Position numbers and translations under genes: made by a program. Shown piece after piece: positions 45,374 through 64,000 of a stretch of 64,000 nucleotides of DNA; positions within the stretch are counted from its first letter, which is position 1, and each line of letters opens with the position of its first letter. The notes below the pieces were generated by a model. It saw only the letters and a list, made by a program, of their open reading frames with translations. It did not search any database and was not told the origin of the DNA. The DNA lies in NCBI RefSeq assembly GCF_016937515.1, contig NZ_JAFHKM010000002.1, forward strand, positions 1,545,001 to 1,609,000, given 5' to 3'. Source of the stretch: Cohnella algarum (GTDB lineage Bacteria; Bacillota; Bacilli; Paenibacillales; Paenibacillaceae).

Positions 45374-46211
45374 CCCTGAGGCACTTTGGGAGAAAGTTCA
45401 GTACCTCCGTAGCAAGAAGTCTTTCGAGTCACCTAAGCACTTTGACGGCAAGTTCCTGCTGACAGGCCTCCTCCGCTGCCCACAATGCGGCGCAGCCATG
45501 ACCGCCAGCGTCACCAAGAACACCGCGAAGGACGGCAGCAAGATAGTACGAACCTACTATTCCTGCGGCAACTTCCGCAGCAAGGGGAGCGCCGTGTGCA
45601 GCGCCAACAGCATCCGCAAGGACGACGCCGAGCGGTTCGTAACTGACCGAATCCGGGAAGTGCTCGTCAAGCCACACATCCTCCGAGGCATCGTCGCCAG
45701 CATCAACAATCGGAAGAAGAACCGGATCAAACCGCTCCAGGAGGAACTCGAGGCGATCAGCGAAAGGATCGCGAACATCGAGGAAAAACGGAAGAAATAC
45801 TTCGATCTTTATGAGATGGATGACTTCGACCGTGAGCTCTTTTCAGGAAGGATGAGCGAGCTTGACGCCGAACGCGACCAACTGCTTACGCGGAGGTCCG
45901 AGATTGAGTTCGAGCTAAGCGGCGATAATTCTCAGACGGTCAGCTACGAGCAAGTGAGCTCCCTGATCGAGCGTTTCGAGTACCTTCTACAAAAGTCATC
46001 CTTTGACCAGCGTAAGACCCTGTTGCATCTCATCATCCAGAAAATCACGCTAAATGACAAGCGTCGGATCGACAAGATCGAGATGGCCTTCGACGAGACA
46101 ACCGAACACCATTTTTTAAGCGTGGCCCCTTCTGCCGACATTGCGGAAGGGGCATTTTCTTTCAACGGGAAAGCCCCAAAAATCAAACACAAGCTAATAA
46201 TCATCATTTAA
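45374..46211 (+). pseudogene. Large serine recombinase, 5' truncated
   Basis: The open frame begins directly at the ISAzo13 end (PEALWEKVQYLRSKKSFES) and runs to 46211, about 278 residues. It contains the recombinase zinc ribbon (LLRCPQCGAAMTA ... YYSCGNFRSKGSAVCSANSI) and the coiled-coil tail (EELEAISERIANIEEKRKKY). The catalytic N-terminal domain with the active Ser is missing. Proteins of this type integrate phages and SCC-like islands, so the fragment points to a former integrative element. Confidence 0.85.
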
Positions 46212-47829: not shown

Positions 47830-47920
47830 GAAGTCCCTCTGCCTTAATCTTCTTTTTTTTTCTTAATAACATTCAGCAATTCTTTTTGTATTTCCAGAAG
47901 ATCATTAAATTTTTTATTAA

Positions 47921-49507
47921 CCTGAATTACGAAAGTACCACCTCATAAAAACATGAAAAAGTGCCCAGATCTTTGGTAGAATGGTGTTTGCCTAGAACAT
48001 CACCAACCAAGAGAGGAGCACCCTTAAGGTGAAGTCTACCACAAAAATCGCGTCATTGAAAACGGCATTTTCTATGAGAAATGCAACAAATTTTGCAGGA
48101 AGCAAGGTGATCCTCGGATTTCTTGAAAACATCGGTTTGAATCAAGCCCTTCGGAGCCTTGGACTAGCCAAAGCGGCGAATGCCATCTTTCCGACGCATC
48201 GCATTCTGCAGATGCTCATCATCGGCTGGATTTTGGGCTGCGAACGTCTCTTTCATTTCAAATCCCTACAAGGTGATGCCTTGATCGCCCAGGCGCTGGG
48301 CGGCCGGGTGCCGCATCACACATTGTTAAACAAGGAATTGCTTCGTCTGGGCAAAGCCCACGACCATTTAGCGCCAGCCCTGCGAAACCTGAATGTCGAA
48401 ATCATTGCACCGCAGCTACCCGACTCCTTGATTCTCGATCTGGATTCGACTGTTGAGACGGTGTACGGCAACCAGCAGGGAGCGGAAGTCGGTTTTAACA
48501 GTCAGAAGCGCGGCCGAAAGAGCTATCATCCCCTTCTCGTGTACGAAGGGCAGTCGCGAATGCTAGTGAATGCCGCGCTGCGTCCCGGCAACACGAGCAG
48601 TTCGACCGACGTCCTTTCGTTTGCCCGGCAAACGCTGGCGTTGTTGGAATCCCACCACGTACGCTATGCCCGGTTTGACAAAGGCTTTGGCGGAGAAGAC
48701 TTCTACGCGTTCTGGGAGTCCCGTCAGATCGGCTACGTCGGCAAGCTGAAATGGACAAGTCGTCTCCAGGACCAAGTCAAAACCTGTGCGCATTGGACAC
48801 GCTTTGTGGACGAGGACTGGATCATTGAAGGCATCGTGCTGGCCTACCAAGCGATCGGTTGGAAGAAGATGCGTCGTGTTGCTGTCATCCGCAAAATGCC
48901 GCGTTGGGACGGGGATCAGTCTCAGTTGGAACTGGATTTGCTTTGGCAATACGAAGCCATGGTCACAACGGAGGAATGGGAAGCCATCGATGTGTGGCGG
49001 TTCTACAACCAGCGCTGCTGCATGGAGAACTACATCAAGGAAGGCAAGAATGGCTTTGCCATCCACCGCATTCCAACGCAGTCGTTTGCCGCCAATGAAA
49101 TCGACCTGCTCTTAAAGCTGCTCGCCTATAATCTCTTTGAGCGATTCAAGCATCATTGTTGTGAGCCGATTCACCGATCCTACACCATCCAGCGGTTCCG
49201 GCGAACGTTTTTTGTTTGTGCAGGTGTGTTTGTCCAGCATGCCCGCCAAATGACATTGAAACTGAGTACGTCTTTCCAAAACCAGTGGGCATGGCGACGA
49301 ATGGAGCGAAAAAGTATTTTATTGGAATAAACGATAATCCCAATTTGTGTCTTGGAAATCCCGTTGCCCCTTCATGTGGGGAGGGGGAAAGTAACGGCAT
49401 TTTTGCTCGCATTCCATTTTGACTGCATATTCTGCCTCCATAATTGGTTGTGAAATCCAAGTTCTGCGTCTTCAAAAGCCTGATTCTATAGGCTTTCGTA
49501 ATTTAGG
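47921..49507 (+). mobile_element. IS1380-family insertion sequence, copy 2 (1587 bp)
   Basis: Same ends and length as the copy at 29654. The target duplication ATTAA is at 47916-47920 and 49508-49512. It splits a small membrane peptide gene. Confidence 0.95.
48029..49330 (+). CDS. IS1380 family transposase (copy 2)
   Basis: A 433-aa DDE transposase (LDLDSTVETVYG; CCMENYIKEGKNGF) with GTG start, identical in sequence to copy 1. Both copies are complete and each has a perfect duplication, so either could be active. Confidence 0.95.
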   Translation: MKSTTKIASLKTAFSMRNATNFAGSKVILGFLENIGLNQALRSLGLAKAANAIFPTHRILQMLIIGWILGCERLFHFKSLQGDALIAQALGGRVPHHTLLNKELLRLGKAHDHLAPALRNLNVEIIAPQLPDSLILDLDSTVETVYGNQQGAEVGFNSQKRGRKSYHPLLVYEGQSRMLVNAALRPGNTSSSTDVLSFARQTLALLESHHVRYARFDKGFGGEDFYAFWESRQIGYVGKLKWTSRLQDQVKTCAHWTRFVDEDWIIEGIVLAYQAIGWKKMRRVAVIRKMPRWDGDQSQLELDLLWQYEAMVTTEEWEAIDVWRFYNQRCCMENYIKEGKNGFAIHRIPTQSFAANEIDLLLKLLAYNLFERFKHHCCEPIHRSYTIQRFRRTFFVCAGVFVQHARQMTLKLSTSFQNQWAWRRMERKSILLE

Positions 49508-49989: not shown

Positions 49990-50019
49990 AGGAAAAGGGA
50001 GAATCACGATAATTCTCCC
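49990..50019 (-). terminator. Terminator of transposon 1 operon
   Basis: On the minus strand GGGAGAAT-TATCGTG-ATTCTCCC is followed by TTTTCC. The ATPase stop codon lies inside the stem. Confidence 0.7.
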
Positions 50020-50804
50020 TGGATGACACGCTTGACCATATGATCGTCAATGATCCGATGTTTGTTCTGTGAGCCGTAGATGAGTGCATGTGTACATACT
50101 TTGTTGATCAGCCTTGCGGCGCCGCTCGAGAATCGGTAGATGTCGTCGATCGCGCTGTCGGTAAAGATGTCATGCTCCGCGCCAGCGAACGTCATGTGAC
50201 GCCTAATGTAATCGCCGGTCTGGGCACGATCATAGTGCGGCAGCTTGCACTGCAGGTCGATCCGCTGGCGGATCGCCGCATACGCTTGCATATTCAGGCG
50301 ATCCCACAGCTCGCTTTGACCGACCAGGATGAGCGCCATAGGGCTCTGTGCATCCATCTTGAAATTGAGCAGGAAACGCACTTCCTCCAGCATTTCGCGA
50401 TCCAGCAGATGGGCCTCGTCGACGACGACAACCGGCTGCAATCGATGAATACCGCGCATAAGCTCAATCTCGCGGTGCAGCTGGCGCTTGGCATCGCCGC
50501 GGTAGAACTTCGATTCGCAGCCGAGTTGTTCGAGCAACCCCTTGTAAAAATGCCGCGGCGTCAGCTTAGAGTCCGATAGGTAGAGCACCTTGTACTTTGC
50601 CGGATCCAGCACTTCGGTGAACCGCCGAATCGTCGTCGTCTTCCCCGTGCCGCAATCGCCGGTAACAACCGCAAACCACTGCCGCTGGGCAGCGTACTCC
50701 AGACGCCCGAGCGTTTCCTCGAGCGTGACCGATTCGTACAACTCGCTGGTCGAGATGTCCCGGGAGAATGGTGAGCGGGTAAGGCCGTAGAAGGACTCAA
50801 ACAT
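50004..50804 (-). CDS. AAA ATPase of transposon 1 (ExeA/TnsC/TniB-like)
   Basis: 266 aa. Walker A TGDCGTGKTTTIRR (about residue 50), Walker B PVVVVDEAHLL (about 125), sensor LILVGQSELWDRL and an arginine-rich RQRIDLQCKLPHY stretch. Proteins of this group form filaments on DNA and present the target site to the transposase. The start overlaps the transposase end by 8 bp. Confidence 0.9.
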   Translation of the reverse strand: MFESFYGLTRSPFSRDISTSELYESVTLEETLGRLEYAAQRQWFAVVTGDCGTGKTTTIRRFTEVLDPAKYKVLYLSDSKLTPRHFYKGLLEQLGCESKFYRGDAKRQLHREIELMRGIHRLQPVVVVDEAHLLDREMLEEVRFLLNFKMDAQSPMALILVGQSELWDRLNMQAYAAIRQRIDLQCKLPHYDRAQTGDYIRRHMTFAGAEHDIFTDSAIDDIYRFSSGAARLINKVCTHALIYGSQNKHRIIDDHMVKRVIQGELS

Positions 50805-52149
50805 GACCGTCCTCCTTGGTCATCCGGCGATAAGCCACGGCCGGCGCCTGCTCCGCTTTGCGACTCCTGCTGCGATCCTCCGCTGCCGCGAGCAGCCTTG
50901 ACGCATCTGCCGGCAGCGGACCGATATGCTCCGGAAGCTGCGGCCGCTTGCCTGCGCGTTCGCCGATGATGAGTTCCCGCACGCGCCAAGGTATATGGCC
51001 TTCGTACTCGATCGTAAGCTCGGTGATGTCCGCAGGGTCGAACACCACATCCACCGTGCAGCCGATGAACGGCAGGCCGACCTCGTACTTCCGGTCCATG
51101 AAGCTGATGCAGCCGGATTTGTCGACCTTGCGTGTCTCGCAGTGCAGGAATGCATTCGCGAGCTCGTCCGGATCCACGAACCGAAGCGCTTGCTTGTCGC
51201 TACGGTACGCCGTTTCCGGACTACGCTTGTTCTCCAGCGCCGAATGCGGCTTGTTCTGATAGCACTCCGACAGCCATACGGCAAACAGTTCGTTGAGCCG
51301 CTCGAGCGTTTTCGGTTTCTCAAGCGCGGACTCGCTCAGGAACGCATCCACCACGCGATTAAACCGTTCGACCTTGCCGGTCGCCTCCGGCGAGTAGGGC
51401 CTCGCGAATAGCAGCCGGATCCCGAGCTTGGAGCATGCCCTCGTCATCCATTTGGTCCGGTACTGCTTGCCGTTGTCGAAATAGACCGCCTCGGGAGCGC
51501 CGAACTTCTGAATGGCTTGGCGGAAGCAGTGCTCCACGATGGTCTTGTCCATGACCGGGTAGAATTCGCCATGAAGCACAAACCGCGTCGCGTCGTCGAT
51601 AAACGTCACCAGAAATACCTGCTTCATGGTACCTCCGGGGCCGATGGGCAAGTACGGGCCATACTTGATATCCGAGTGCCACAAGCGATTACGATGGCGC
51701 TTTTGGAACCGCCGTGCGGCGACGCCCGATTCGGCGTACATGCGCATATGGCGCGTGCTGTAACCGCGCTCTGCTAATCTTTCCTGCAGCGTGCTGCGCT
51801 TGATCTGCCCGGGTTTTATACGGCCTTCCCATTCCAGGATCTGAATGAGCTGGGCAACGCTTCGGCCGGGCACCTCCCGGCGCAGCAAAATGGCCTGCTC
51901 CACAATTTCTGGTGGAATGATCTCCTCTGACGGCTGGCGTCCCTTGCCTCGTGGCTTCAGGCCGCCGAAGCCGTCTTGGCGATACTTGGCCAGATACCGG
52001 CGCAGCGTCCGCTCGGAGAGTCCAGTTTGCTCACATATCTGTCGCTTGATCTGGCTGGCTTTGGCGGTGTCCAGCCCTTCCGCCAGCAGCGGCGACAGGA
52101 GCTGCATGCGTTCCGACGCGACGGCCTCTGCTTTCTTCTGATCTTTCAT
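50797..52149 (-). CDS. DDE transposase of transposon 1 (Mu/TnsB-like integrase core)
   Basis: 450 aa. N-terminal helix-turn-helix region (KRQICEQTGLSERTLRRYLA), then the rve core with Asp in LWHSDIKYGPYLP, Asp in AVYFDNGKQYRT and Glu in EATGKVERFNRVV. A C-terminal beta-barrel (about 340-420) follows as in Mu-type transposases. The ATG at 52149 sits behind GAGGTG; the longer frame to 52263 is not supported. Intact. Confidence 0.9.
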   Translation of the reverse strand: MKDQKKAEAVASERMQLLSPLLAEGLDTAKASQIKRQICEQTGLSERTLRRYLAKYRQDGFGGLKPRGKGRQPSEEIIPPEIVEQAILLRREVPGRSVAQLIQILEWEGRIKPGQIKRSTLQERLAERGYSTRHMRMYAESGVAARRFQKRHRNRLWHSDIKYGPYLPIGPGGTMKQVFLVTFIDDATRFVLHGEFYPVMDKTIVEHCFRQAIQKFGAPEAVYFDNGKQYRTKWMTRACSKLGIRLLFARPYSPEATGKVERFNRVVDAFLSESALEKPKTLERLNELFAVWLSECYQNKPHSALENKRSPETAYRSDKQALRFVDPDELANAFLHCETRKVDKSGCISFMDRKYEVGLPFIGCTVDVVFDPADITELTIEYEGHIPWRVRELIIGERAGKRPQLPEHIGPLPADASRLLAAAEDRSRSRKAEQAPAVAYRRMTKEDGHV

Positions 52150-52186
52150 CTGTTCTGCACCTCGCTTGGTAGACTTCCAGATGAGT

Positions 52187-52732
52187 CTACCGCAGCATCT
52201 TGCCGGACAAGAATGCAGAACGGGTATGTAACCACAAATTTGAATTTGCGACCGGGCGGACAATTCGCGCCAGCCAGCCGGGGGCGTCCCCGACGTAGTG
52301 TCCGAAAGGGTGATGTGCAGTCTGCGTAGAGACGGACGGCTTCTTCGCAGGGTCCTGATGAAAGCGAATGGCGATAGATCTTAGAGCTCCGAGCAGGTAT
52401 GTGGTCTGTTCGCGAAACCAGTTCTTCCAGCGAAGCAAAGTCGCGTCATCTGCCGCTACCGTAGATGGAGCCGCATGTTCCGATACGACTTGTTCCACGC
52501 ATGCCGATTCGTACCGTTTGTACGGCACCACACAATCCGGGAGCTCATGGTGGATCTTCCGGCATTGTGTACAACGCAGCCGGCGAATGACGAGCAAGCG
52601 GCGATCTCCGTCCTCGCTGGTGAGCTTCCGCTTCCGACTGCCAATGACACTAAGCGCTTCTCCACAGCAGGGAGAGGGAACCAATTCTGCACATCGAACA
52701 AAAAACGCCGGGTGACTTCTCATCCAGCTCAT
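52187..52732 (-). CDS. DUF6431-type zinc-ribbon protein of transposon 1
   Basis: About 181 aa. Cysteine pairs in CAELVPSPCCGEAL and RRLRCTQCRKIHHELPDC form a zinc ribbon; a helical region with WKNWFREQTTYLLGAL follows. It matches what I know as DUF6431, found at the head of this kind of transposon. The role is not described; a DNA-binding target selector or regulator is a reasonable guess. The start is uncertain among ATGs at 52798, 52732 and 52723, since none has a strong ribosome site. Confidence 0.7.
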   Translation of the reverse strand: MSWMRSHPAFFVRCAELVPSPCCGEALSVIGSRKRKLTSEDGDRRLLVIRRLRCTQCRKIHHELPDCVVPYKRYESACVEQVVSEHAAPSTVAADDATLLRWKNWFREQTTYLLGALRSIAIRFHQDPAKKPSVSTQTAHHPFGHYVGDAPGWLARIVRPVANSNLWLHTRSAFLSGKMLR

Positions 52733-53723
52733 ACTTTGATACAATGACCATGTTGTTTGGGGGATGCATCCCGTGAGCCTGTTCCCGCAGGCCCACATAC
52801 ATGGGAGGCATCCTTTTCCTTTTCTGTGATACGGTCATTATATTCAGCAACTCTCGGACAGGCAATCCCGCCAGCAATTGGACGTTATCTTTCGGCGGCA
52901 ACATTATTACACAAACACTCCTTCATTCTTTATTAATAGTAGCAATTTTGACAATTTGTCCAATATTTATTATACACTGAGTATTTTGAATTATCAAAAG
53001 GATGAATTGGAAGATGATTTTAAAAAGGCCATATTCAATTACTTGGAGAGTTTACAGTCGAATATAGGGAACTTTGGGTTCTCTATAATTGATAGGGAAA
53101 ATATCGATAGAGAAAAAAACGGTGGGAAGGAAACGTATTTATCAACCTACTATGCAATAGAGTCGTATCATCTCTTAGGAATGGAGATGAAAGATAGTAC
53201 AAAATATAAATTAATGAATTGGTTTAAAAGTAAACTTGAGGATGATGCCTTCTGGAGAGAAATAAACTTTTCTGGGATTGGACATTTTTATATTTTTTTA
53301 AAAAGCGCAAAAGCTGTAAATTTTGACTTAACGAATTATAATCAAAAAATTAAACAAAAGATTAGTGGATCTATCGCTGAAATGAAACAATCTTATGATA
53401 CTGAAGAAATTACAATGCTAGATATAAATAGCTTATCTCATTTAGGGGCAGATTATAAGTTGAATTTAACCGATATATTTAATCCTGCTTTTTTTAAGGA
53501 TTATGTTTTGGAAGACGGCGGTTATTCACTTTTTAAGGACGAAGAAAACAGCCATATTCTTGCAACTAATTTAGCGTTGGAAGCTCAAGTAATTAATGGG
53601 ATTCGAATCCAAGAATTGAGCAATTATGATGATCTTGTGAATACTTTGGACAATTTTGGTAGTGCGTCCTTTTGTAATCTTTAGCCCCCACTTATTTCAA
53701 ATAAAAAAAATGGAGGAAGATTA

Positions 53724-53906
53724 ATGAAATTAAACAAGGTTGTCTTGTCATTATTTTGTATGATTTTATTTGCTGGAACTACAAGTGCATATGCAAAATC
53801 TAATTCACAAGATCCTGTGTTTCACAAGATAATTGTGAATGGACAACAAGTTACAATTAAAGAGTATGAAGACAAGGGTATAAAAATTTGTCATCAGCCA
53901 CTTTAA
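53724..53906 (+). CDS. 60-aa secreted peptide, unknown
   Basis: GGAGGAAG lies before the ATG at 53724. A clear signal peptide (VVLSLFCMILFAGTTSAYA) leaves a mature peptide of about 36 residues with one Cys. It is AT-rich and directly follows the lipoprotein gene (39 bp), so the two were probably one operon. The end abuts the terminal repeat of transposon 2 at 53908, so the C-terminus may have been changed by that insertion. No family recognised. Confidence 0.55.
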   Translation: MKLNKVVLSLFCMILFAGTTSAYAKSNSQDPVFHKIIVNGQQVTIKEYEDKGIKICHQPL

Positions 53907-54001
53907 TTGACGGTAGATTCGGAACCGCCAATGACGGTGGCTTTTTGCTTTCCTCACCGCCGTTTCGGAGACAATTATATTTCGCCTTTGTTTGTCGGCG
54001 T

Positions 54002-54026
54002 AAAAAAACTGCTCCGAAGAGCAGTT
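54002..54026 (-). terminator. Terminator of transposon 2 operon
   Basis: On the minus strand AACTGCTC-TTCG-GAGCAGTT is followed by seven T residues, directly at the DUF5348 stop codon. Confidence 0.85.
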
Positions 54027-54087
54027 AGAACAGCGGTCGGACGCGGTACTTGGCATGTCGGTGGAGCCAGAACTTCGAATTTCCAAA

Positions 54088-55445
54088 GAGTCTGTAAAAT
54101 ACTTTGTGTAAACTCTCAAACCTACTAAAATGAAATCATGGAGAGGTTGGGGAGCACACATGGGATTATGGACGAAAGAGCAGCTGCGGAGTTTCATCAA
54201 GGAGAATAATCTGGTCACCGCACAGGATGCGCAGAATGCGCTAAAGGACCTGTTTGCCGAAACGCTGCAAGAAATGCTAGAGGCCGAAATGGATACGCAC
54301 CTGGGCTATAGCAAGCATGACGTGCAGAACAAGCAGACGAAGAACAGTCGCAACGGTAAGAGCAAGAAAATCGTCACTAGCGAGTACGGCGACCAGGAGA
54401 TTGCCGTGCCACGGGATCGCCTGGGCGAGTTCGAGCCGCTCGTGGTGAAGAAGCATCAGTCCAACGTGACGGGGATCGAGGATCAGATCGTCGCCCTGTA
54501 CGCCAAAGGCGTCAGCACGCGGGAGATCCAGGACCATCTGCAGAATCTCTATGGTTTGGAGGTCTCGCCAACCTTTATTTCCAATGTCACGAATAAGATC
54601 ATTCCGCTCATCAAAGAGTGGCAGAATCGGCCGTTGCAGGGCGTATACGCGGTCGTCTTCCTGGACGCCATCCACTTCAAGGTGAAGCAAGACGGGGCGA
54701 TCGTGAACAAAGCTGCCTACATGGTCATTGGGATCGACATGGACGGCAACAAGGACGTGCTGGGCATGTGGATCGGCGAGAACGAGTCCGCGAAGTTCTG
54801 GCTGAGCGTCTTGAACGATCTTAAGAATCGCGGCGTTCAGGACATCCTTATCACCTGTGTCGACAACCTCACGGGCTTCTCCCAGGCGATCTCTGCCTGT
54901 TATCCGAAGACGGAGATTCAGAAGTGCATCATCCACCAGATCCGCAACTCCACGCGCTACGTCTCCTACAAGGATCTGAAGAAGGTGACGGCCGATCTGA
55001 AGCCCATCTACAAGGCTGCTACGGAGGAAATGGCTCTGCTGGAACTCGACCGCTTTGAGGAGACGTGGGGCGCCAAGTATCCCCTTATTGTCCGCTCATG
55101 GCGCAGCAATTGGGACGAACTCGCCACCTTCTTCAAGTATCCGCCTGAGCTTCGTAAGCTCATCTACACGACGAACATGATTGAGAGCTATCATCGCCAA
55201 TTGCGAAAAGTCACCAAAGGGAAAAGCATCTTCCCAAGCGACGAGGCGCTACTGAAAATGCTGTACTTAGTCACGATGGACGTCACCCGCAAATGGACCG
55301 GTCGTGTTCAAAACTGGGGACAGATGCTCCTGCAGCTCTCCGTCTTCTTTCCGGACCGGATCGGCCAGCACTTACCTTGAGGAGGCTAATCTCCCCTTCG
55401 GAGAGATGCCTATAAAAGAGTTTACACAAAATTATTGACAGACCC
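54088..55445 (+). mobile_element. IS256-family insertion sequence, copy 1 (1358 bp)
   Basis: Ends GAGTCTGTAAAATACTTTG and, inverted, GGGTCTGTCAATAATTTTG share the inner TTTGTGTAAACTC. A perfect 8-bp duplication TTTCCAAA flanks it (54080-54087, 55446-55453). An identical copy in the opposite direction is at 59917. Confidence 0.95.
54160..55380 (+). CDS. IS256 family transposase (copy 1)
   Basis: 406 aa from the ATG behind GGGGAG. Family blocks: VVFLDAIHFKVKQDG (first Asp), ITCVDNLTGFSQAI (second Asp), KCIIHQIRNSTRYV and TNMIESYHRQLRKVTK with the catalytic Glu. Complete and identical to copy 2. Confidence 0.95.
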   Translation: MGLWTKEQLRSFIKENNLVTAQDAQNALKDLFAETLQEMLEAEMDTHLGYSKHDVQNKQTKNSRNGKSKKIVTSEYGDQEIAVPRDRLGEFEPLVVKKHQSNVTGIEDQIVALYAKGVSTREIQDHLQNLYGLEVSPTFISNVTNKIIPLIKEWQNRPLQGVYAVVFLDAIHFKVKQDGAIVNKAAYMVIGIDMDGNKDVLGMWIGENESAKFWLSVLNDLKNRGVQDILITCVDNLTGFSQAISACYPKTEIQKCIIHQIRNSTRYVSYKDLKKVTADLKPIYKAATEEMALLELDRFEETWGAKYPLIVRSWRSNWDELATFFKYPPELRKLIYTTNMIESYHRQLRKVTKGKSIFPSDEALLKMLYLVTMDVTRKWTGRVQNWGQMLLQLSVFFPDRIGQHLP

Positions 55446-55624
55446 TTTCCAAACTTCACGTACCAGTCCGTATCGAGCTCAAGGTTGGATGGCAAGAAGT
55501 GCTTTCCTACTTGAATCATCACGGCATCACCACAACGTAGCGAGCAAAGCAACTCTTCTCCATCGTACACGTTCCAACGCTCGGTATCTCCATGAAATCG
55601 TATCTCATTCATATTTGTCATCCC

Positions 55625-56427
55625 TCACTGTTCCTTAAATTCAGCTAGGATCCTCGTCACATGGACGGTATCAATCATTTTGTCTTTTCGCAGCACTGCA
55701 TCCAGAAGCGCAGCGGTGCAGACGTTATTTATCTCTCGGCATATCCCCGAGCATGCGCGTATATGGCGTCCATCGCTTCTGTCGTAAACACCGGCCCTGT
55801 ACTTCCGGCAACCTCCAATTGGTGGGAGATGTAATCGCGGCACTCCTCGAGCGACAAGCCTTCCAAATGAAAACGCACGTTCATCCGCTGTGTAATCGGC
55901 TTGAAGATTCTCAGTTGCAACGTGGCCTGTAGTTCCGGCTGTCCAATGAGCAGCAGGGCAAGCGGCGAAATCGAGTCCATACGAAAATTCGTCAAAAAGC
56001 GTATTTCTTGCAGCATGTCTCCTGAAAGCAGGTGCGCTTCATCCACGACAATAATGGCGACCTTCTGCTGGTTCTCGTACAAATCCCATACGAGGTGCTG
56101 GAATTGCCGTTTGGCTTCGCTGCGCAGAAACTTGGGCGGCAAGCCGAAGTGGTGGAGGAGTTCACGGTAAAAGTCCCTTGGTTTCAGATTCGCATCCGAC
56201 AGATAGATAAACCGGTACTTGTTCGGATCCAGTTGGTCTTTCAAGTAGCGAACGGCTGTCGACTTGCCGCAGCCAATTTCACCGGTGACGCAGCCAATCG
56301 AGCGAGTCATCACCATATACTGCATCCGTGCTACACATTCTTCGAATCGCTTGGAGCGGTGCAGATGCCGTGTTTCAATCTCCCGGGTGAACGGAACGCG
56401 CTCCCACCCGAAGAAACCACGAATCAT
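55625..56427 (-). pseudogene. AAA ATPase of transposon 2, frameshifted
   Basis: Same family as the ATPase at 50004: Walker A TGEIGCGKSTAVRY, Walker B VAIIVVDEAHLLSG, LLIGQPELQATL. The frame breaks at about 55745, where AYAHARGYAER meets a stop. The neighbouring frame supplies the missing end (REINNVCTAALLDAVLRKDK to FKEQ), matching the NKVCTHALIYG region of transposon 1. One base is missing, so transposon 2 probably cannot move by itself. Confidence 0.85.
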
Positions 56428-57806
56428 GAGCGATTCACCTCTTTCATCGCTCGCGAAAGCGCAGCGCCTTGCGCTTCGCGGGTCTGCCGTTTCTGTTCTT
56501 CCACCAATAATTCCACATAGTTGAGGCCCGTCTTCGGCGGTTGCATGACGGCCTTCGGTTCATCCTGCTTCGGCCGGTTTTTCGGATCGCGGAGCTTCAT
56601 TGGCTTCGCGTCTTCATAGCGCTGGCCGTCCTTCCACACCTGGATGACGGACAGGTCGTGCGGATCGAATCGCACCTGAATCTTCGAGCCGGCAAGCTCT
56701 GTCTGGACCTCGAATATCGTGCCCAGCAGCGAGATGCATCCCGTTTTGTCCACTTTGCGGGATTCCTCCAGCAAGAATACTTCTATGAGTTCATGCGGCG
56801 GCAACATGCGAATCGGGTGGTCGTCTTTTTGGTATCGGTCGACTGGGCGCTGCTTAAAGCTGTTGTGGACTTTCTGGTGGTAAGCAATCTCAAGCCACGC
56901 CGAGAAGAATCGATTCAAATCGTTAAGCGTCTGGATCTTCCCTTGTTCAATCAGGTCGTATGCCTCCGGCACAAAGCTCTGGTCGACAAATCGGAAGAAC
57001 TTTTCTTGCTTCCCGCGTCCCATAGGACGTCCGGGGCGAGTATGCTTAAGCTCTGCCCCCAGTCGCCCGCAAATCCGCTCAAAATGGTGTGAAGAATAGA
57101 TGGCGCCGTTATCGACATAGATCATTTCCGGCACTCCGTTCTTTAAAATCGCCTTCTTCAGGCAATCCTCCAGCCGGGCCACACGTTCCTCGAAATAGAA
57201 CTGGCCATGCACAACGAAGCGAGAGTAATCGTCAATGAAAATAACCAGATAGGCCATGACCTTCTTGCCGGGCTTGTCCGGATGCGGAAGGTAAAGGGTA
57301 TGCTGCACATCGCCTTGCCACATGCTATTTCGGTGCGTGGCTTCAAACCGGCGAAAGTGGCTCCACCCCGTATTCAGTAACGCTTTGCGCGTGACGCCGC
57401 GGCGGCGAAGCTGCTTGCTAAGCGTGCTTTCTTTCAGGGTGCCGGGGGCCACGAATGCCGCCAGTTCCAGAATCGCAATAATCTGCCTGACGCTTCGGCC
57501 GGGTTGCTCCTGCTTTAAGGCAATCGCTTTGGCAAGCACATCCTCGGGGATTTCCCTGGTCGTGAGTTTGTCTGCTCGGACGGAGGGCAACAGCGCCTCC
57601 CATCCGCCTTCGCGATACGCTTTTAAATATCGCTCAAGCGTTCGTAGACTAATTCTCCTTCGCTGTCCCGACGACGTTTCATACTCATGGCTTACAATTT
57701 CGCGCATCAACGCCATCTGTTCTCCGGGATCCAATTTGCGGCTAACCAGTGATGCAATTAAGCCATAACGGAAGTTGGCTTCTTGCTGCCTTGCTTGCTC
57801 ATCCAT
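56424..57806 (-). CDS. DDE transposase of transposon 2 (Mu/TnsB-like)
   Basis: 460 aa. Helix-turn-helix region (RRRISLRTLERYLKAYREGG), core Asp in MWQGDVQHTLYLP, Asp in MIYVDNGAIYSS and Glu in MGRGKQEKFFRFVDQ (the usual GKVER is replaced by GKQEK). A C-terminal barrel and a basic tail follow. It overlaps the ATPase start by 4 bp. Open throughout. Confidence 0.9.
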   Translation of the reverse strand: MDEQARQQEANFRYGLIASLVSRKLDPGEQMALMREIVSHEYETSSGQRRRISLRTLERYLKAYREGGWEALLPSVRADKLTTREIPEDVLAKAIALKQEQPGRSVRQIIAILELAAFVAPGTLKESTLSKQLRRRGVTRKALLNTGWSHFRRFEATHRNSMWQGDVQHTLYLPHPDKPGKKVMAYLVIFIDDYSRFVVHGQFYFEERVARLEDCLKKAILKNGVPEMIYVDNGAIYSSHHFERICGRLGAELKHTRPGRPMGRGKQEKFFRFVDQSFVPEAYDLIEQGKIQTLNDLNRFFSAWLEIAYHQKVHNSFKQRPVDRYQKDDHPIRMLPPHELIEVFLLEESRKVDKTGCISLLGTIFEVQTELAGSKIQVRFDPHDLSVIQVWKDGQRYEDAKPMKLRDPKNRPKQDEPKAVMQPPKTGLNYVELLVEEQKRQTREAQGAALSRAMKEVNRS

Positions 57807-57978
57807 GCTAAATCTCCTCTCCCTGTGGTCTATGAGAGTATCGCATAGACGCTAGAAGCCAGGGAGGGCGCATATTTTGTGGGATCAGGAGGGCAACTTG
57901 CCGTCCAGGCGATTTTTAAAGCAATTTTGGAGGCGATTTTCGTTTGCCTTGCTCCTTGGCGGTGGATGCTGAAGGGAT

Positions 57979-58581
57979 TTATAAGCGTGATGCTACAGGT
58001 AACCTCGCATTTAGAAACGTCCAATAGCCCCGTCTGGATGCGCCAGCGGGGATGAATCGGGGTAACAGTTTGTCCAGCCAATCCAATGTATCCATTGGCG
58101 TTGGGTTCATCATGGTGGGGTAAAGGTGGAGCATATCCGTGTCGTCCCCCTGGGCTACGAGTTTCCCAGCAACCCATAGTGCTGCATCCGCTGCGCGGCG
58201 CAGATGTCTTGCCCACCAGCGTTTCAACGTACGGCGGCTATAACGCACGGCAGGAGTTGTTGTGCTTTCTGTCGTCTGCCGCCAAGAGAATCCCTTGTGC
58301 TTGCGCTTTAATGCCGCTTCTCGCACCCAAGTCGCATACCGGGCCCATGGAATCAGGAACTCCGGCAGGAGGGAGATTGTTATTCTACAGGTAGGACAAT
58401 ATCGACGGTAGATCGGGATCTGGATGACCTCATGCTTCGTCACAATTCCTCGCCAATAACGACCGTGTTTATGGAGAAGCCGACCGCAGTTTTCACAGCA
58501 GAGCTGGACGTCAGGAGATTGATTTCCGAATGTGCGTAAATAAGCCTTGCAAGAAAGGCCGAAATAAAGTATTTTTGACAT
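57979..58581 (-). CDS. DUF6431-type zinc-ribbon protein of transposon 2
   Basis: 200 aa. Two Cys pairs (LCCENCGRLLHKHGRYW and YRRYCPTCRITISL) form a zinc ribbon, followed by a helical, basic region (WVREAALKRKHKGFSWRQ). It is an evident relative of the gene at 52187 and occupies the same first position in the operon. A 10-bp inverted repeat AATGCTCCCG/CGGGAGCATT (58591-58629) lies just upstream and could control expression. Confidence 0.7.
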   Translation of the reverse strand: MSKILYFGLSCKAYLRTFGNQSPDVQLCCENCGRLLHKHGRYWRGIVTKHEVIQIPIYRRYCPTCRITISLLPEFLIPWARYATWVREAALKRKHKGFSWRQTTESTTTPAVRYSRRTLKRWWARHLRRAADAALWVAGKLVAQGDDTDMLHLYPTMMNPTPMDTLDWLDKLLPRFIPAGASRRGYWTFLNARLPVASRL

Positions 58582-58641
58582 GATGAAGTGAATGCTCCCG
58601 GGGATCCTCGCCAAAGGTTCGGGAGCATTTTCCTTTTTAAT

Positions 58642-58693
58642 CGACAATAGCCTAATCCACCGTCATTGTACAGAAGGGATTAGGCTATTGTCG
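58642..58693. repeat. 17-bp perfect inverted repeat at the right end of transposon 2
   Basis: CGACAATAGCCTAATCC (58642-58658) and GGATTAGGCTATTGTCG (58677-58693) are exact inverted copies 18 bp apart. The inner copy is the transposon's own end region; the outer one lies beyond its terminal repeat. Confidence 0.85.
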
Positions 58694-58736
58694 GCTGTTT
58701 ATTCGGTTTGGCTCCGCCACACCGAATGGCGAATTC

Positions 58737-59756
58737 ATGCCTTTTTCCCGCCATAAAGTCAGGCGGCGAACAATTTTTGACCCTCAGTTATATTTCCCAA
58801 GAACAGAGCGAGGGAAACTAAGGGAGTGGTCTTATTTTCCATCAGATATTGACACGACAATTATTTCCAATGAATCGTGGTGGCAGAAAGTTGTTCGAGA
58901 TATTGTAGTTACTTGTCAAAGGATCAACTGTCACTCAGCTTGTTCTCCAGTGTTTGCTCCTAGGTCATATACCAACGATTATTACTCTATGATGATCAAT
59001 ATTGGAAATTACTTTGCTGGTGAAATTAATAAAATAAATGTAACTCCGCTCCAAACAGTTTTAGTAAGTCTAAATGATTTATCATCTGAACAGAGATCGC
59101 AATATATTGCATCAGTTGTTAGTCAAACAATTGCAGAACGAGTTTATTTAGTCTTTGTAAGTGATGTTGTTCCACGTAGAGAGTTTACGAATGCTGATGA
59201 GCTAAAGAATGCAATGAAGCTGATAAGTATTTTGGAGGATTCTGGAATAGAAATCCTCGTTGGTTTCTGTTCATCTGATTTTGTTCTTTGGAAGGCAGCC
59301 GGAGCTACATCGTGCGCTACTGGGAAGTTTTTCAACTTACGAAGATTTACAAGTTCTAGATTTGATGAACCAACCGCGGGCGGAGGACAGTTGCCCTACT
59401 GGTTTGAAGAAAACTTAATGGCATTCCTGCGAGAATCGGATGTTATTCGTATTCAAAGAAGTAACTTAATAAGCGAGGTAAGCCAAAACAACCCTTTTTC
59501 TCAATTGATTTTAGAGCATATGAGGATGTCGCCGGGAACGGCATGGTTAAGTCTAAGTTGGAGACAGTATATGTATGCTTTTGCTGATCTTGAAAATCGA
59601 ATAGACCTGGGTAAAGTTGTGGTTAGCAAGCTGTTGAAACAAGCAGAGGACAATTGGTTAGAGTTGGAAGATAAAAACATACTTTTGGAAGAGGCTAGGA
59701 ATAATGGAGAATGGATAAGATTGTGGAGACGAGCTTTGTCTGAATATTCGCAGTAG
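58737..59756 (+). pseudogene. C-terminal part of an unrecognised AT-rich protein (third gene of the rlmH-adjacent operon)
   Basis: The open frame covers 339 codons, but the believable protein begins at TIFDPQLYFPRTERG (about 58770). Before that the residues look like foreign, mobile-element-derived sequence. Conserved-looking blocks include EWSYFPSDIDTT, SYTNDYYSMM, VYLVFVSDVVPRREF, CATGKFFNLRRFTSSR and LSLSWRQYMYAF. I cannot name the family; alternating strands and helices suggest an alpha/beta barrel-like enzyme. The matching N-terminal piece is at 61451-61618 on the other strand, so this gene was split and inverted. Confidence 0.65.
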
Positions 59757-59817
59757 CAAGCTTAAGGTCTTGACTAAAATTGATAGTGGAAGCTAGAACT
59801 CGAACAAGGAACGTAGT

Positions 59818-59847
59818 AAAGCATGTCTCGTGTCGAGGACATGCTTT
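59818..59847 (+). terminator. Terminator-like hairpin after the split gene
   Basis: AAAGCATGTC at 59818-59827 pairs with GACATGCTTT at 59838-59847, about 60 bp after the stop codon. It was probably the end of the original operon. The remaining bases up to the IS256 at 59917 show no gene. Confidence 0.6.
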
Positions 59848-59916
59848 AGATATTCGCTTATGTCCAGAGAAGTCTCTAGCTAATTACAAGTTGGTCGCTA
59901 TTTAGGCGCAACGTGA

Positions 59917-61274
59917 GGGTCTGTCAATAATTTTGTGTAAACTCTTTTATAGGCATCTCTCCGAAGGGGAGATTAGCCTCCTCAAGGTAAGTGCTGGCCG
60001 ATCCGGTCCGGAAAGAAGACGGAGAGCTGCAGGAGCATCTGTCCCCAGTTTTGAACACGACCGGTCCATTTGCGGGTGACGTCCATCGTGACTAAGTACA
60101 GCATTTTCAGTAGCGCCTCGTCGCTTGGGAAGATGCTTTTCCCTTTGGTGACTTTTCGCAATTGGCGATGATAGCTCTCAATCATGTTCGTCGTGTAGAT
60201 GAGCTTACGAAGCTCAGGCGGATACTTGAAGAAGGTGGCGAGTTCGTCCCAATTGCTGCGCCATGAGCGGACAATAAGGGGATACTTGGCGCCCCACGTC
60301 TCCTCAAAGCGGTCGAGTTCCAGCAGAGCCATTTCCTCCGTAGCAGCCTTGTAGATGGGCTTCAGATCGGCCGTCACCTTCTTCAGATCCTTGTAGGAGA
60401 CGTAGCGCGTGGAGTTGCGGATCTGGTGGATGATGCACTTCTGAATCTCCGTCTTCGGATAACAGGCAGAGATCGCCTGGGAGAAGCCCGTGAGGTTGTC
60501 GACACAGGTGATAAGGATGTCCTGAACGCCGCGATTCTTAAGATCGTTCAAGACGCTCAGCCAGAACTTCGCGGACTCGTTCTCGCCGATCCACATGCCC
60601 AGCACGTCCTTGTTGCCGTCCATGTCGATCCCAATGACCATGTAGGCAGCTTTGTTCACGATCGCCCCGTCTTGCTTCACCTTGAAGTGGATGGCGTCCA
60701 GGAAGACGACCGCGTATACGCCCTGCAACGGCCGATTCTGCCACTCTTTGATGAGCGGAATGATCTTATTCGTGACATTGGAAATAAAGGTTGGCGAGAC
60801 CTCCAAACCATAGAGATTCTGCAGATGGTCCTGGATCTCCCGCGTGCTGACGCCTTTGGCGTACAGGGCGACGATCTGATCCTCGATCCCCGTCACGTTG
60901 GACTGATGCTTCTTCACCACGAGCGGCTCGAACTCGCCCAGGCGATCCCGTGGCACGGCAATCTCCTGGTCGCCGTACTCGCTAGTGACGATTTTCTTGC
61001 TCTTACCGTTGCGACTGTTCTTCGTCTGCTTGTTCTGCACGTCATGCTTGCTATAGCCCAGGTGCGTATCCATTTCGGCCTCTAGCATTTCTTGCAGCGT
61101 TTCGGCAAACAGGTCCTTTAGCGCATTCTGCGCATCCTGTGCGGTGACCAGATTATTCTCCTTGATGAAACTCCGCAGCTGCTCTTTCGTCCATAATCCC
61201 ATGTGTGCTCCCCAACCTCTCCATGATTTCATTTTAGTAGGTTTGAGAGTTTACACAAAGTATTTTACAGACTC
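59917..61274 (-). mobile_element. IS256-family insertion sequence, copy 2 (1358 bp, inverted)
   Basis: Same length and ends as copy 1, opposite orientation. Flanks are CAACGTGA (59909-59916) and TCGCGATA (61275-61282), so there is no duplication. Its right side cuts an IS110 gene. Loss of one flank by deletion or recombination is the simplest reading. Confidence 0.93.
59982..61202 (-). CDS. IS256 family transposase (copy 2)
   Basis: 406 aa, identical to the transposase at 54160 (VVFLDAIHFKVKQDG; ITCVDNLTGFSQAI; TNMIESYHRQLRKVTK). Complete. Confidence 0.95.
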   Translation of the reverse strand: MGLWTKEQLRSFIKENNLVTAQDAQNALKDLFAETLQEMLEAEMDTHLGYSKHDVQNKQTKNSRNGKSKKIVTSEYGDQEIAVPRDRLGEFEPLVVKKHQSNVTGIEDQIVALYAKGVSTREIQDHLQNLYGLEVSPTFISNVTNKIIPLIKEWQNRPLQGVYAVVFLDAIHFKVKQDGAIVNKAAYMVIGIDMDGNKDVLGMWIGENESAKFWLSVLNDLKNRGVQDILITCVDNLTGFSQAISACYPKTEIQKCIIHQIRNSTRYVSYKDLKKVTADLKPIYKAATEEMALLELDRFEETWGAKYPLIVRSWRSNWDELATFFKYPPELRKLIYTTNMIESYHRQLRKVTKGKSIFPSDEALLKMLYLVTMDVTRKWTGRVQNWGQMLLQLSVFFPDRIGQHLP

Positions 61275-61450
61275 TCGCGATATCCGTCCCGATGACCAAT
61301 GTTGTTTCAGAAATTCTCGAAATCCGTTGATTTTGCTTGCTCGATTGGTTAAACTTCATAGTGAGCGTCCTCCTCTTAATTAGGGCAGTGAATGTGCACC
61401 ATTCCGAGACCCAGCATACAGGAGGCGCTTTTTGTTTTGCAAACCGCATT
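61275..61450 (-). pseudogene. IS110 family transposase remnant (N-terminus)
   Basis: From the ATG at 61359 the minus strand encodes about 28 residues (MKFNQSSKQNQRISRISETT, LVIGTDIA) typical of IS110 transposase N-termini, including the first Asp of the DEDD site. It is cut at 61274 by IS256 copy 2. The stretch 61360-61450 should be the left end of that IS110. The rest of the element is not on the other side of IS256. Confidence 0.65.
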
Positions 61451-61618
61451 TTAATTCATTACAGGAATGGCTCCTTTTTGCCTCATTCCTACCACTTGAG
61501 CAATAACTTTTTCCTCGTTGTAGTTAACCGGACTAAGAACTGCTCCTTTATATTGATTCAGATTTTGATCTGATACAAGATTAATCGTGTCATGTCCCAT
61601 CTGATGATAGCTACCCAT
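61451..61618 (-). pseudogene. N-terminal part of the unrecognised third operon gene
   Basis: From the ATG at 61618 (AGGGGGA upstream, overlapping the kinase stop) the frame encodes 55 residues (MGSYHQMGHDTINLVSDQ, YKGAVLSPVNYNEEKV, VVGMRQKGA), then breaks into IS110 sequence. It lies 12 nt after the kinase gene, the same gap as between nuclease and kinase, so the three formed one operon. The fragment at 58770 supplies the missing part (RQKGA to TIFDPQLY). Confidence 0.55.
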
Positions 61619-61630
61619 ACATAAATCCCC

Positions 61631-62479
61631 CTATACTTTGTATAAGTTCCAAGCATCCTTCAGTTGTTTCGGTGTTCTATATCTACCAATCGGCCAAGGG
61701 GAGACCATTTTGAATAATACGTCTAGCTTACATTCTCGGCAAAAGTGTTCAAATTCTGTACTAAAATTGCTACGTCTTATTATTCTATTAACAACATCAC
61801 CTGGATCATCTCCGATAAAACCGTAAGGATGCATACCTAACAAAGATAACGAAAAAGTAATGCCTAGGGAAAATTGATCGGACCTCCAGTCAATTAGTTC
61901 TTTTTGATTGTTAAGTTGTTCTGGAGATGAAAAATATGGTGAACCTGGACCTTGCATCAGCCAAGTTTGAGTTAATGACTCGCTGTTCAAATCCCTGACT
62001 AAACCAAAATCAACAATGACGGGGGTTAAACCATCTTCCCTGAACATAATATTATCAGGTTTTATGTCCCTATGTACTAAGCCATGAGACGAAATATGAG
62101 AAAGTGCGTCGATTAATGAATTACCTATAAGATAGAACTCGCTAATATTCATGGTTCTGAGCTTTAATTTTTCTGTCAATGTGCCGCCTAGCAGAAACTC
62201 TTCAAGTAAATATAAATAATTCTGACCTTTGTACTCGTATTTAGTAACCTGAATAAGCTTCCCTATGTTGGGATGATTACAAACAAGCATTGCATCTATT
62301 TCTCGTTTCGTTCTCTCGCTTATTTTACCAGATTTGAAAACCTTTAAAGCAATGTTAAATCCATGCTGATTAATGACATGGTATGTCTCCTTAAATGTTC
62401 CCTCCCCGCTGCCACCAATAAAATCTAAATTTAACTCATCACATATAGCCCGAGCGACATCCTCCAGAACAGTCGACAT
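61631..62479 (-). CDS. Hanks-type Ser/Thr protein kinase, soluble
   Basis: 282 aa, a kinase domain alone. Gly-rich loop GGSGEGTFKET (residue 22 on), the ATP Lys in IALKVFKSG, catalytic loop LVHRDIKPDNIMF (near 135), DFGLVRDL, and a truncated APE-type SPEQLNN. All catalytic residues are present. There is no membrane helix or PASTA domain, unlike the housekeeping PrkC. AGGGGGA precedes the ATG. It is AT-rich and sits in the middle of a three-gene operon. A signalling role in a defence module is inference. Confidence 0.88.
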   Translation of the reverse strand: MSTVLEDVARAICDELNLDFIGGSGEGTFKETYHVINQHGFNIALKVFKSGKISERTKREIDAMLVCNHPNIGKLIQVTKYEYKGQNYLYLLEEFLLGGTLTEKLKLRTMNISEFYLIGNSLIDALSHISSHGLVHRDIKPDNIMFREDGLTPVIVDFGLVRDLNSESLTQTWLMQGPGSPYFSSPEQLNNQKELIDWRSDQFSLGITFSLSLLGMHPYGFIGDDPGDVVNRIIRRSNFSTEFEHFCRECKLDVLFKMVSPWPIGRYRTPKQLKDAWNLYKV

Positions 62480-62491
62480 AAGATCGTCCCC

Positions 62492-62920
62492 CTAGCATTG
62501 AACAAACTCTAATGCTCTCTCCCTAAGCCATGGTTGCAGTGGTTCAGAGTCACTTGCATCCTGAACAATACTTATACCCTGATCCGTAATACAGCACAGA
62601 CCAACACCTCTCTTACTGAACTCTAAATTATGCTTAACAGCGTTATCCACTTCCGTTTCAGGGAGAAGCACATATGATAAGTCGGCAAAACACTGATTGC
62701 GATAAGCTTGCTGTAATGCTTGTTTCCATTTAATGAGCTTGGCCTCAATTGCAATAACTTTTCCGTTTGTAGAGACAGCAACGATGTCTGTTCTTCCTCG
62801 CTGGTAATCAAATTCCGTTGCACACTTGACTTCACCCCACGGTGAGATATTAGTATGTAGTTGACTCACAAAACTTAGTACCAAAGTTTTTTCATCTGAA
62901 AACACCCTATGTTCCCCCAT
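62492..62920 (-). CDS. Small PD-(D/E)XK-like nuclease
   Basis: 142 aa. GRTDIVAVSTNGKVIAIEAK (about residues 37-56) carries the D...EAK catalytic pattern of the PD-(D/E)XK superfamily, with a helix QALQQAYRNQCFADLSYVLL behind it as in restriction-like nucleases. An N-terminal helical part may bind DNA or a partner. It is the first gene of the operon, 12 nt ahead of the kinase. The target (DNA or RNA) is unknown. Confidence 0.7.
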   Translation of the reverse strand: MGEHRVFSDEKTLVLSFVSQLHTNISPWGEVKCATEFDYQRGRTDIVAVSTNGKVIAIEAKLIKWKQALQQAYRNQCFADLSYVLLPETEVDNAVKHNLEFSKRGVGLCCITDQGISIVQDASDSEPLQPWLRERALEFVQC

Positions 62921-62969
62921 TCAATTGCAATTCATGTTGGTTCGTGCCTCAAGACATCTGATACCCCTA

Positions 62970-62998
62970 ATTTTACCATATAAATTATGGTTACTGAA
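62970..62998 (-). promoter_or_regulatory. Probable promoter of the nuclease-kinase operon
   Basis: On the minus strand TTCAGT (62998-62993) and TAAAAT (62975-62970) are 17 bp apart, with TGG directly before the -10 box. It lies in the 93-bp AT-rich gap between rlmH and the nuclease gene. Confidence 0.5.
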
Positions 62999-63013
62999 TA
63001 AAAATCGTTGCCG

Positions 63014-63493
63014 TTATTTATGATACGGTTCCCCCCGATTAATCCGAAACGCCCGATACACCTGCTCCACCAGGATCAGCCTCATCAGTTGGTGCGGGTA
63101 GGTGAGACGGCCGAAGGAAAGCTTCTTGTCGGCGCGCTTTAAGACGGCGTCGGACAGGCCGAGGGAGCCGCCGATGACGAAGGCGACGTGGCTGGAGCCG
63201 TAGGTGGCGAGTTTGTCGAGATGGGAAGCGAGGTCTTCGGACGACCAGAGCTCGCCGCCGATGGCGAGGGCGATGACGTGCGCGTCGTCCTTCAATTGCA
63301 AAAGGATGCGCTCGCCCTCTTTGTCCTTGACCTGGCGTTCTTCGGCGGGGCTGAGGATTTCGGGGGCTTTTTCGTCGGGGACTTCGGTTAGGGTGATGCG
63401 GGCGTAGGGGCCGAGGCGCTTGACGTATTCGGCGATGCCCTGGACGAGGTATTTTTCCTTCAGCTTGCCGACGGAGACGATCTGGATATGCAA
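63014..63493 (-). CDS. rlmH: 23S rRNA pseudouridine-1915 N3-methyltransferase
   Basis: 159 aa, the usual length. It starts at TTG (63493) 10 nt after AAAGGAAG; the in-frame ATG at 63697 would add a non-homologous extension. SPOUT motifs: [30 protein letters not shown] and the C-terminal knot [20 protein letters not shown] ending NRGEPYHK. It methylates pseudouridine 1915 in helix 69 of 23S rRNA. The last codons (CCGTATCATAAATAA) correspond to the SCC attachment core in staphylococcal rlmH (orfX). Foreign DNA starts right behind it. Confidence 0.95.
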
Positions 63494-63674
63494 AAAGGGT
63501 TCTTCCTTTCCGGCCAAGCCGCGCGGCGGCCCGGGTTCTGAGTGAAGGGGATATCGCGATAAAGCGAAAAAAAGGGAACGATGACGCACCGGCCCCGAAG
63601 ACCGCGCACCCCGCGATTCCTCCTCCCGGGACGCGGCCATCGTTCCCTTTCCGAAATCCGGCATCTCCGGACGG
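63494..63674. other. Gap between topB and rlmH
   Basis: 181 bp. An open frame upstream of rlmH runs through it but has no homology I recognise. I see no convincing promoter. Confidence 0.3.
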
Positions 63675-64000
63675 TCAAGCTTCCAGCGCCAGCTCACCCG
63701 TGCCCGGATTGACCAATAAAATGCGAGCCTCGTACGCTTCGCCAGCGCCGTTCTTGAATTTAAGTTTGCCCGTTTTGCCCTTTTCGATCAGGCTGCGGAC
63801 CATGGCGTCGGTGAGGCTGCGGCCGAAGCTCATCTTCCAGATGACGAAGGAGCAGCCGGTTTTGTAGTGGCTGCAGCCGTAGCCTTTGCGGCCCATGAAG
63901 ATTTGGCCGCCGCAGCCCGGGCGCGGGCACGCGCCGATGACGGCGGGCGCGGCAGGGGCGGCGGACGGCGCGGGGGCCGCGGCTGTCGCGACCGCGCTGC
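63675..64000 (-). CDS. topB: DNA topoisomerase III, C-terminal part (cut by window edge)
   Basis: The frame enters from the right edge and ends at 63675. An Ala/Pro-rich linker ([15 protein letters not shown]) is followed by a C-terminal zinc ribbon-type repeat: [17 protein letters not shown] and [16 protein letters not shown], then [16 protein letters not shown]. This is the tail found on many Bacillales topoisomerase III proteins. The catalytic part lies outside the window, so the assignment rests on the tail alone. Confidence 0.7.

Follow-up and report, generated by a model that had tools for sequence, protein, structure and literature searches.

A nuclease domain is joined to serine/threonine (Ser/Thr) kinase domains in PglW of type 2 BREX and in some DndF proteins (PMC12839542, PMC10853773), tRNA-guanine transglycosylase (TGT) proteins occur in Dpd, whose DpdA is a TGT homologue, and in BREX-related capture (BRC) systems (PMC12839542), and KKP consists of two kinases and a phosphatase (PMC11341870). 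Here, a trio of genes in a 64,000-nucleotide stretch of Cohnella algarum (contig NZ_JAFHKM010000002.1, positions 1,545,001 to 1,609,000; hereafter the window) is compared with these systems. The trio encodes a PD-(D/E)XK nuclease, a Hanks-type Ser/Thr kinase and a third protein (gene 3) with a predicted TGT-like fold. Read from the genes alone, it is most likely an undescribed, horizontally moving three-protein module acting against phages or other invading DNA, an assignment made with moderate confidence.

A recurrent three-gene unit

The trio is arranged in the window as follows.

62492..62920, minus strand: open reading frame (ORF) of the PD-(D/E)XK nuclease, gene 1 of the trio, with a probable GTG start at 62905
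61631..62479, minus strand: Hanks-type Ser/Thr kinase, gene 2 of the trio (Pkinase E 9.2e-32 and conserved catalytic residues)
61478..61618, minus strand: start of gene 3, its first ~47 codons (profile positions 1-51; element boundary at 61476-61479)
58764..59756 (start approximate), plus strand: inverted remainder of gene 3 (profile positions 46-380)

The initial annotation had placed ORFs 62492-62920, 61631-62479 and 61451-61618 on one strand with identical 12-nt gaps; the ORF list confirms the three minus-strand frames, and the nuclease-kinase and kinase-gene 3 gaps both measure 12 nt. Only ~47 codons of the third ORF count as gene 3, because an IS110-type remnant begins at ~61477 and the frame reads into it as far as 61451, while the remainder is contained in ORF 58737-59756 (plus strand). 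Both parts match one family of ~380 aa, which bears out the inverted remaining part proposed earlier. In line with the ribosome sites described before, GGGGGA-type sites, read by eye, precede the kinase and gene 3, and one more stands ahead of a GTG inside the nuclease ORF. The nuclease probably starts at the GTG (62905; 137 aa, the same as in locus L040) instead of at 62920. The low G+C content (GC) was also borne out: the 1-kb steps holding the trio have values of 0.39-0.42, whereas of the first 28 steps of the window 26 lie at 0.55-0.67 and the remaining two at 0.50 and 0.53. By contrast, the single promoter and the terminator of gene 3 found no support, as the consensus scan detected neither a promoter ahead of the nuclease gene nor a terminator past the gene 3 remainder.

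Conservation of the unit was assessed in 45 loci, each of which had been reached by way of gene 3 and was scored with profiles for the three proteins. After removal of a duplicate (L079, equal to L015), three loci cut by contig ends (L023, L025 and L073) and four with a shortened gene 3 (L026, L027, L028 and L072), 37 loci were evaluable, and all three genes were found together in 36 of them, in agreement with the predicted recurrence of a kinase and a nuclease beside gene 3 homologues. The exception, L005, is without the nuclease and the kinase start, and the kinase frame of L013 is interrupted. The order nuclease-kinase-gene 3 is kept in 33 of the 36; the nuclease is convergent in L010 and L039 and comes last in L076, with the partners retained in all three, so that the genes stay together even where their order changes. 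Pairwise distances, compared over 35 of the 36 loci (without L013), correlate at 0.93 for kinase and gene 3, 0.90 for nuclease and gene 3 and 0.87 for nuclease and kinase; the corresponding values within the 27 close-type loci are 0.76, 0.76 and 0.70, and none of 2000 permutations reached the observed correlation in any case. The three genes therefore diverge together.

Among 453 neighbouring ORFs of at least 80 aa (blastp 1e-8), no family was present in more than 3 of 40 loci, the most widespread being three families found in 3 loci apiece, and the unit therefore consists of the nuclease, the kinase and gene 3 only. This bears on the possibility that the trio is a toxin-antitoxin module or serves the stability of mobile elements, in which case the nuclease or the kinase would be toxic alone and a partner would restrain it, as may be compared with KKP. 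The tight operon and the rare carriage described below would suit such a module, but the unit recurs without a small fourth gene in this ORF size range and comprises three enzyme-type proteins, making this explanation fairly improbable.

Two loci deserve mention for their structure. L028 (7478-8279) is a decaying copy, in which an intact nuclease is followed by a kinase start joined to a gene 3 end by internal deletion. L039 (7732-10632), with its convergent nuclease, represents a sister type whose gene 3 has 47 homologues, some named Bacillus wiedmannii and Cytobacillus.

Gene 3 encodes a TIM barrel of predicted TGT-like fold

Gene 3 belongs to a highly conserved family: for its remainder, 859 homologues were found at E <= 1e-3. 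Among full-length homologues, the best have 380-392 aa and an identity of up to 86%, the best named being that of Paenibacillus woosongensis (73%), and no Pfam domain is listed for the best 120 of the 859. The predicted structure is a TIM barrel with a TGT-like fold across the whole chain, which refines the earlier description of the protein as alpha/beta; a search of viral structures returned mixed TIM barrels, 4 of 50 being named TGT. Most of the invariant residues come after the ends of the predicted strands, where the active sites of TIM barrels lie. By sequence, the best solved relatives reached only E 0.026 and 0.25, and against NCBIfam, distant gene 3 proteins gave no more than matches far below cut-off.

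Mapped by eye onto TGT, an invariant glycine, G237 (35/35), would correspond to the nucleophilic Asp of strand 8, and D56 (conserved in 35/35) to the second active-site Asp. No conserved Cys or His follows residue 245, either in the 43 members of the gene 3 alignment (43 of the 120 listed homologues) or in the set of 35, so that the C-terminal Cys/Cys/Cys/His zinc site was not found. Phosphorylation of the loop after G237 was considered and rejected: T246 is T/S in 43/43 close members but in only 22/35 when distant ones are included.

A TGT-like barrel beside a nuclease recalls Dpd, with its TGT homologue DpdA, and gene 3 could by the same logic insert a modified base in host DNA while the nuclease cuts DNA without it. 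However, the glycine at the hand-mapped nucleophile position, the missing zinc site and the lack of any further gene in more than 3 of 40 loci, whereas Dpd has several, all speak against such modification-restriction, and the DpdF model, matched by one neighbouring protein, is also matched by one control protein in the scan given below. This explanation is thus very improbable.

Nuclease, kinase and a possible mechanism

The nuclease carries the PD-(D/E)XK (D-ExK) motif and the predicted fold of this superfamily, in line with its initial assignment, although its Pfam signal is weak (PDDEXK_4, E 0.022, below cut-off) and solved relatives were matched by sequence only at E 0.25 and above. Among distant types, the nucleases of L032 and L039 have a long insert between the catalytic strands, and those of L074, L075, L081, L083 and L084 are 235-273 aa long. 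The kinase was likewise correctly recognised as a Hanks kinase, with the VAIK Lys, HRD Asp, DFG Asp and APE Glu present; R137, D138, N143, D157, G159, T170 and E187 are each conserved in 31/31 sequences, and the VAIK Lys, K46, in 28/31, three of the rows being fragments. As judged from the sequences, the catalytic residues and motifs of both enzymes are intact. No fused kinase forms were apparent from length (264-298 aa) among the 120 listed of 1236 kinase matches.

It is plausible that these proteins act in defence. The TGT-fold protein would bind or process nucleic-acid bases, thereby reporting an invader or marking self; the kinase would be turned on by activation-loop phosphorylation and would then set the state of its partner proteins; and the small PD-(D/E)XK nuclease would be the effector. 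The kinase is likely the switch and the barrel the recognition or base-processing part, and we infer defence, the order of signalling and the substrate. Tentatively, and with low confidence, the trio may even represent a new type of phospho-controlled restriction, in which a TGT-fold protein without the transglycosylase nucleophile reads or excises a particular base, be it in DNA or tRNA of the invader or possibly of the host, while the adjacent kinase licenses the small nuclease, and which bacteria and haloarchaea would share by horizontal transfer. If the trio is a defence system, a TGT-type fold and phosphorylation control of a nuclease would be joined in a stand-alone immune module.

Comparison with described systems

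Like PglW and the kinase-bearing DndF, in which a PD-(D/E)XK-type (NERD) nuclease and Ser/Thr kinase domains are combined in one defence protein, the trio pairs a nuclease with a kinase, but here they are separate genes accompanied by a TGT-fold protein. By analogy, this combination counts for a defence role. PglZ, BrxC and PglX were not among the listed PADLOC families of 272 neighbouring proteins, a scan in which BREX and Dnd partner genes were not searched for individually. With Dpd (DpdA) and BRC the trio would share a TGT-fold protein in a defence context, from which it differs in that gene 3 has no detectable TGT sequence similarity or conserved zinc site and that no further partner recurs.

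The kinase domain resembles those of Stk2, PD-T4-6, MAD6 of MADS and KKP. PADLOC scores of the trio kinase were 3e-37 for mad6, 4e-29 for PD-T4-6 and 3.5e-17 for Stk2 (KKP was not scored); Stk2, the comparison offered by the initial annotation, is therefore apt for the kinase domain and for nothing beyond it. The same applies to the others, since only the common kinase domain is shared, whereas the trio kinase goes with a nuclease and gene 3 in the 36 loci above. The kinase reaches 77 bits against the 460 cut-off for MAD6. The scored loci have one kinase beside gene 3, and a second kinase matching the trio-kinase profile, as KKP would call for, was not found in the 453 neighbouring ORFs (a phosphatase was not searched for).

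None of the four profile libraries searched provides a name for the trio, and no description of it was found in the literature, the coverage of which largely excluded subscription journals. The nuclease and kinase folds are well known, and of gene 3 the fold is known and the family is not. As a defence system, the trio would offer annotation tools an easily recognised new gene set, and its intact operons would make a clear experiment possible.

Distribution

A scan of a species-genome collection, for which two peptide patterns were used and which therefore gives a lower bound, returned at least 27 gene 3 loci, 2 of the 27 being a gene 3 end only; judged from the record titles, they represent more than ten phyla. 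Carriers by record title include Planctomycetota, Rubrobacter, Acidobacteria, Eisenbacteria, Gemmatimonadetes, Armatimonadetes, Clostridiales, Myxococcales, Hydrogenedentota, Eremiobacterota, Verrucomicrobia, Deferribacteres and several proteobacterial classes. Among 72,556 plasmid records, gene 3 matched 2, one Polaromonas and one haloarchaeal plasmid; it matched none of 50,697 phage records, and it did match 2 viral contigs. Whole-genome searches gave matches in 4/394 Paenibacillaceae, 7/398 Bacillota, 3/349 genomes of the order of a Burkholderia genome and 7/347 of the phylum of a Bryobacterales genome, counts to which the starting genomes contribute, as do remnants and one short partnerless match (L082 in G1381, rejected as a trio). 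This rare and patchy distribution across phyla, in bacteria and an archaeon, suggests that the trio moves horizontally.

Loss of co-occurrence or a housekeeping third protein would have told against the initial proposal; instead the genes do occur together, and carriage in 4/394 genomes of its family rules out a housekeeping role for gene 3. The distribution also bears on a repair or RNA quality-control module, in which the barrel would act on damaged or unusual bases, the nuclease would cut and the kinase would regulate. Rare, patchy and partly plasmid-borne carriage together with decay into remnants (L027, L028 and L072) better fit accessory conflict genes, as do the defence genes among the neighbours, and such a repair or quality-control function is unlikely.

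Gene neighbourhood

PADLOC was applied to 272 proteins encoded at most ~4.5 kb away from the trio at 40 loci (five were left out, as were three ORFs of more than 1300 aa) in batches of 150 and 122, and as a control to 132 of the 207 proteins encoded by 17 arbitrarily chosen stretches, most of which came from genomes that carry a trio. The families listed were 25 of the 75 and 25 of the 80 matched by the two neighbour batches, and 25 of the 62 matched by the controls (down to ~3e-25). At least 8 of the 272 neighbours are hallmark defence proteins, a status that reflects our judgement, as opposed to none among the listed matches of the 132 controls: two type III methyltransferases, type III and type I restriction enzymes, a type IIG enzyme, HmaB, HmaC and Thoeris ThsB. 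The listed control matches were DpdF, GajB, PsyrT, RTasHel, C3a193, mad3 and PDC-S28, the first five of which we take to be helicase-type models.

The module is read as directed against invaders because it is scattered patchily across phyla, occurs on plasmids, has defence genes as neighbours and includes a nuclease of effector type. Several points nevertheless weigh against this reading. Co-occurrence is known only from the gene 3 side, all loci having been found through this gene. The hallmark counts (8 or more of 272 versus 0 of 132) give p ~0.04, calculated by hand, one-sided and over proteins that are not independent, and the numbers of PADLOC families matched hardly differ (75 and 80 families from the batches of 150 and 122 neighbours, 62 families from the 132 controls), so that the enrichment of defence genes is only modest. 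Moreover, PF01702 (TGT) was matched by 0/43 gene 3 members, in a search whose filters drop most matches above 0.1. Comparison by hhalign with 11 TGTs (two long ORFs being trimmed to their last 400 residues) gave probabilities of 0.0-0.4%, and identity to TGT is 6-10%; as there is no sequence-level link to TGT, the proposed base-related role of gene 3 derives solely from its predicted fold.

Some neighbourhoods have features of their own. In L074 (192-9239) the Hma defence genes HmaB-HmaC are followed after ~65 bp by the start of a distant trio, which is possibly an accessory module of Hma. L021, L077 and L078, from one bacterial order, have a ~298-aa neighbour in common, L021 and L077 also one of ~656 aa, and L077 and L078 a third that is TniQ-like by our reading. 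From these shared neighbours, a Tn7-like transposon may carry the trio there; TnsB matches among the neighbour proteins numbered 2. Related ~1600-aa proteins occur near the trios of L014 (1398-6170) and L020 (1069-6147).

Mobile elements and the broken copy in the window

The following features surround the trio.

63014..63697, minus strand: rlmH, the chromosomal gene immediately upstream of the trio (profile matches)
61276..~61477, minus strand: IS110-type remnant of ~200 bp, the start of its transposase (matches elsewhere in the genome)
59916..61275, minus strand: complete IS256-family element without a flanking target repeat (profile and repeat comparison)
55729..58647, minus strand: transposon-type genes (AAA_22 ATPase, rve/Mu-type transposase, DUF6431), now adjoining the gene 3 remainder (Pfam and profile)
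54087..55446, plus strand: second, identical IS256 copy, flanked by repeated TTCCAA (repeat comparison)

Gene 3 had been described as broken by one IS110; in its place we find the short remnant together with a complete IS256 copy, whose transposase lies at 59982-61232 (NF033543, E 5e-132). This copy is one of 8 near-identical full IS256 copies in the genome. The remnant, which has no Pfam match and which we assign to IS110 by our own reading, is 99.5-100% identical to 3 other genome sites carrying a 462-468 aa transposase. Since a target repeat flanks the second IS256 copy but not the copy beside gene 3, it was probably a rearrangement at the latter, rather than simple insertion, that split gene 3, and the trio copy in this window is probably inactive. 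That the two IS256 copies in the window mediated an inversion is unsupported, one of them having its flanking TTCCAA repeat.

rlmH is the site used by staphylococcal cassette chromosome (SCC) elements. An SCC-type attachment repeat was sought at the rlmH end and rejected, since besides the end itself a single match with 2 mismatches was obtained, which is the chance level; no convincing second att-like repeat was found for the low-GC region ending at rlmH, and no RNA families were found within 53000-64000 of the window. A large serine recombinase fragment (PF13408 zinc ribbon; phrog_95) lies inside this low-GC region at 45498-46211. At 50004-52798, genes for a TniB-like ATPase, a transposase of the Mu/rve type and a protein with DUF6431 follow one another, and the similar set at 55729-58647 mirrors them. 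The very AT-rich stretch 52878-53684 (GC 0.33 for 53-54 kb) encodes a 268-aa prenyltransferase-toroid-like protein (PF00432, E 9e-7). Finally, 29652-31240 and 47919-49507 are direct copies, 1589 bp long and 99.9% identical to each other; the element that they represent encodes a DDE transposase of 433 aa.

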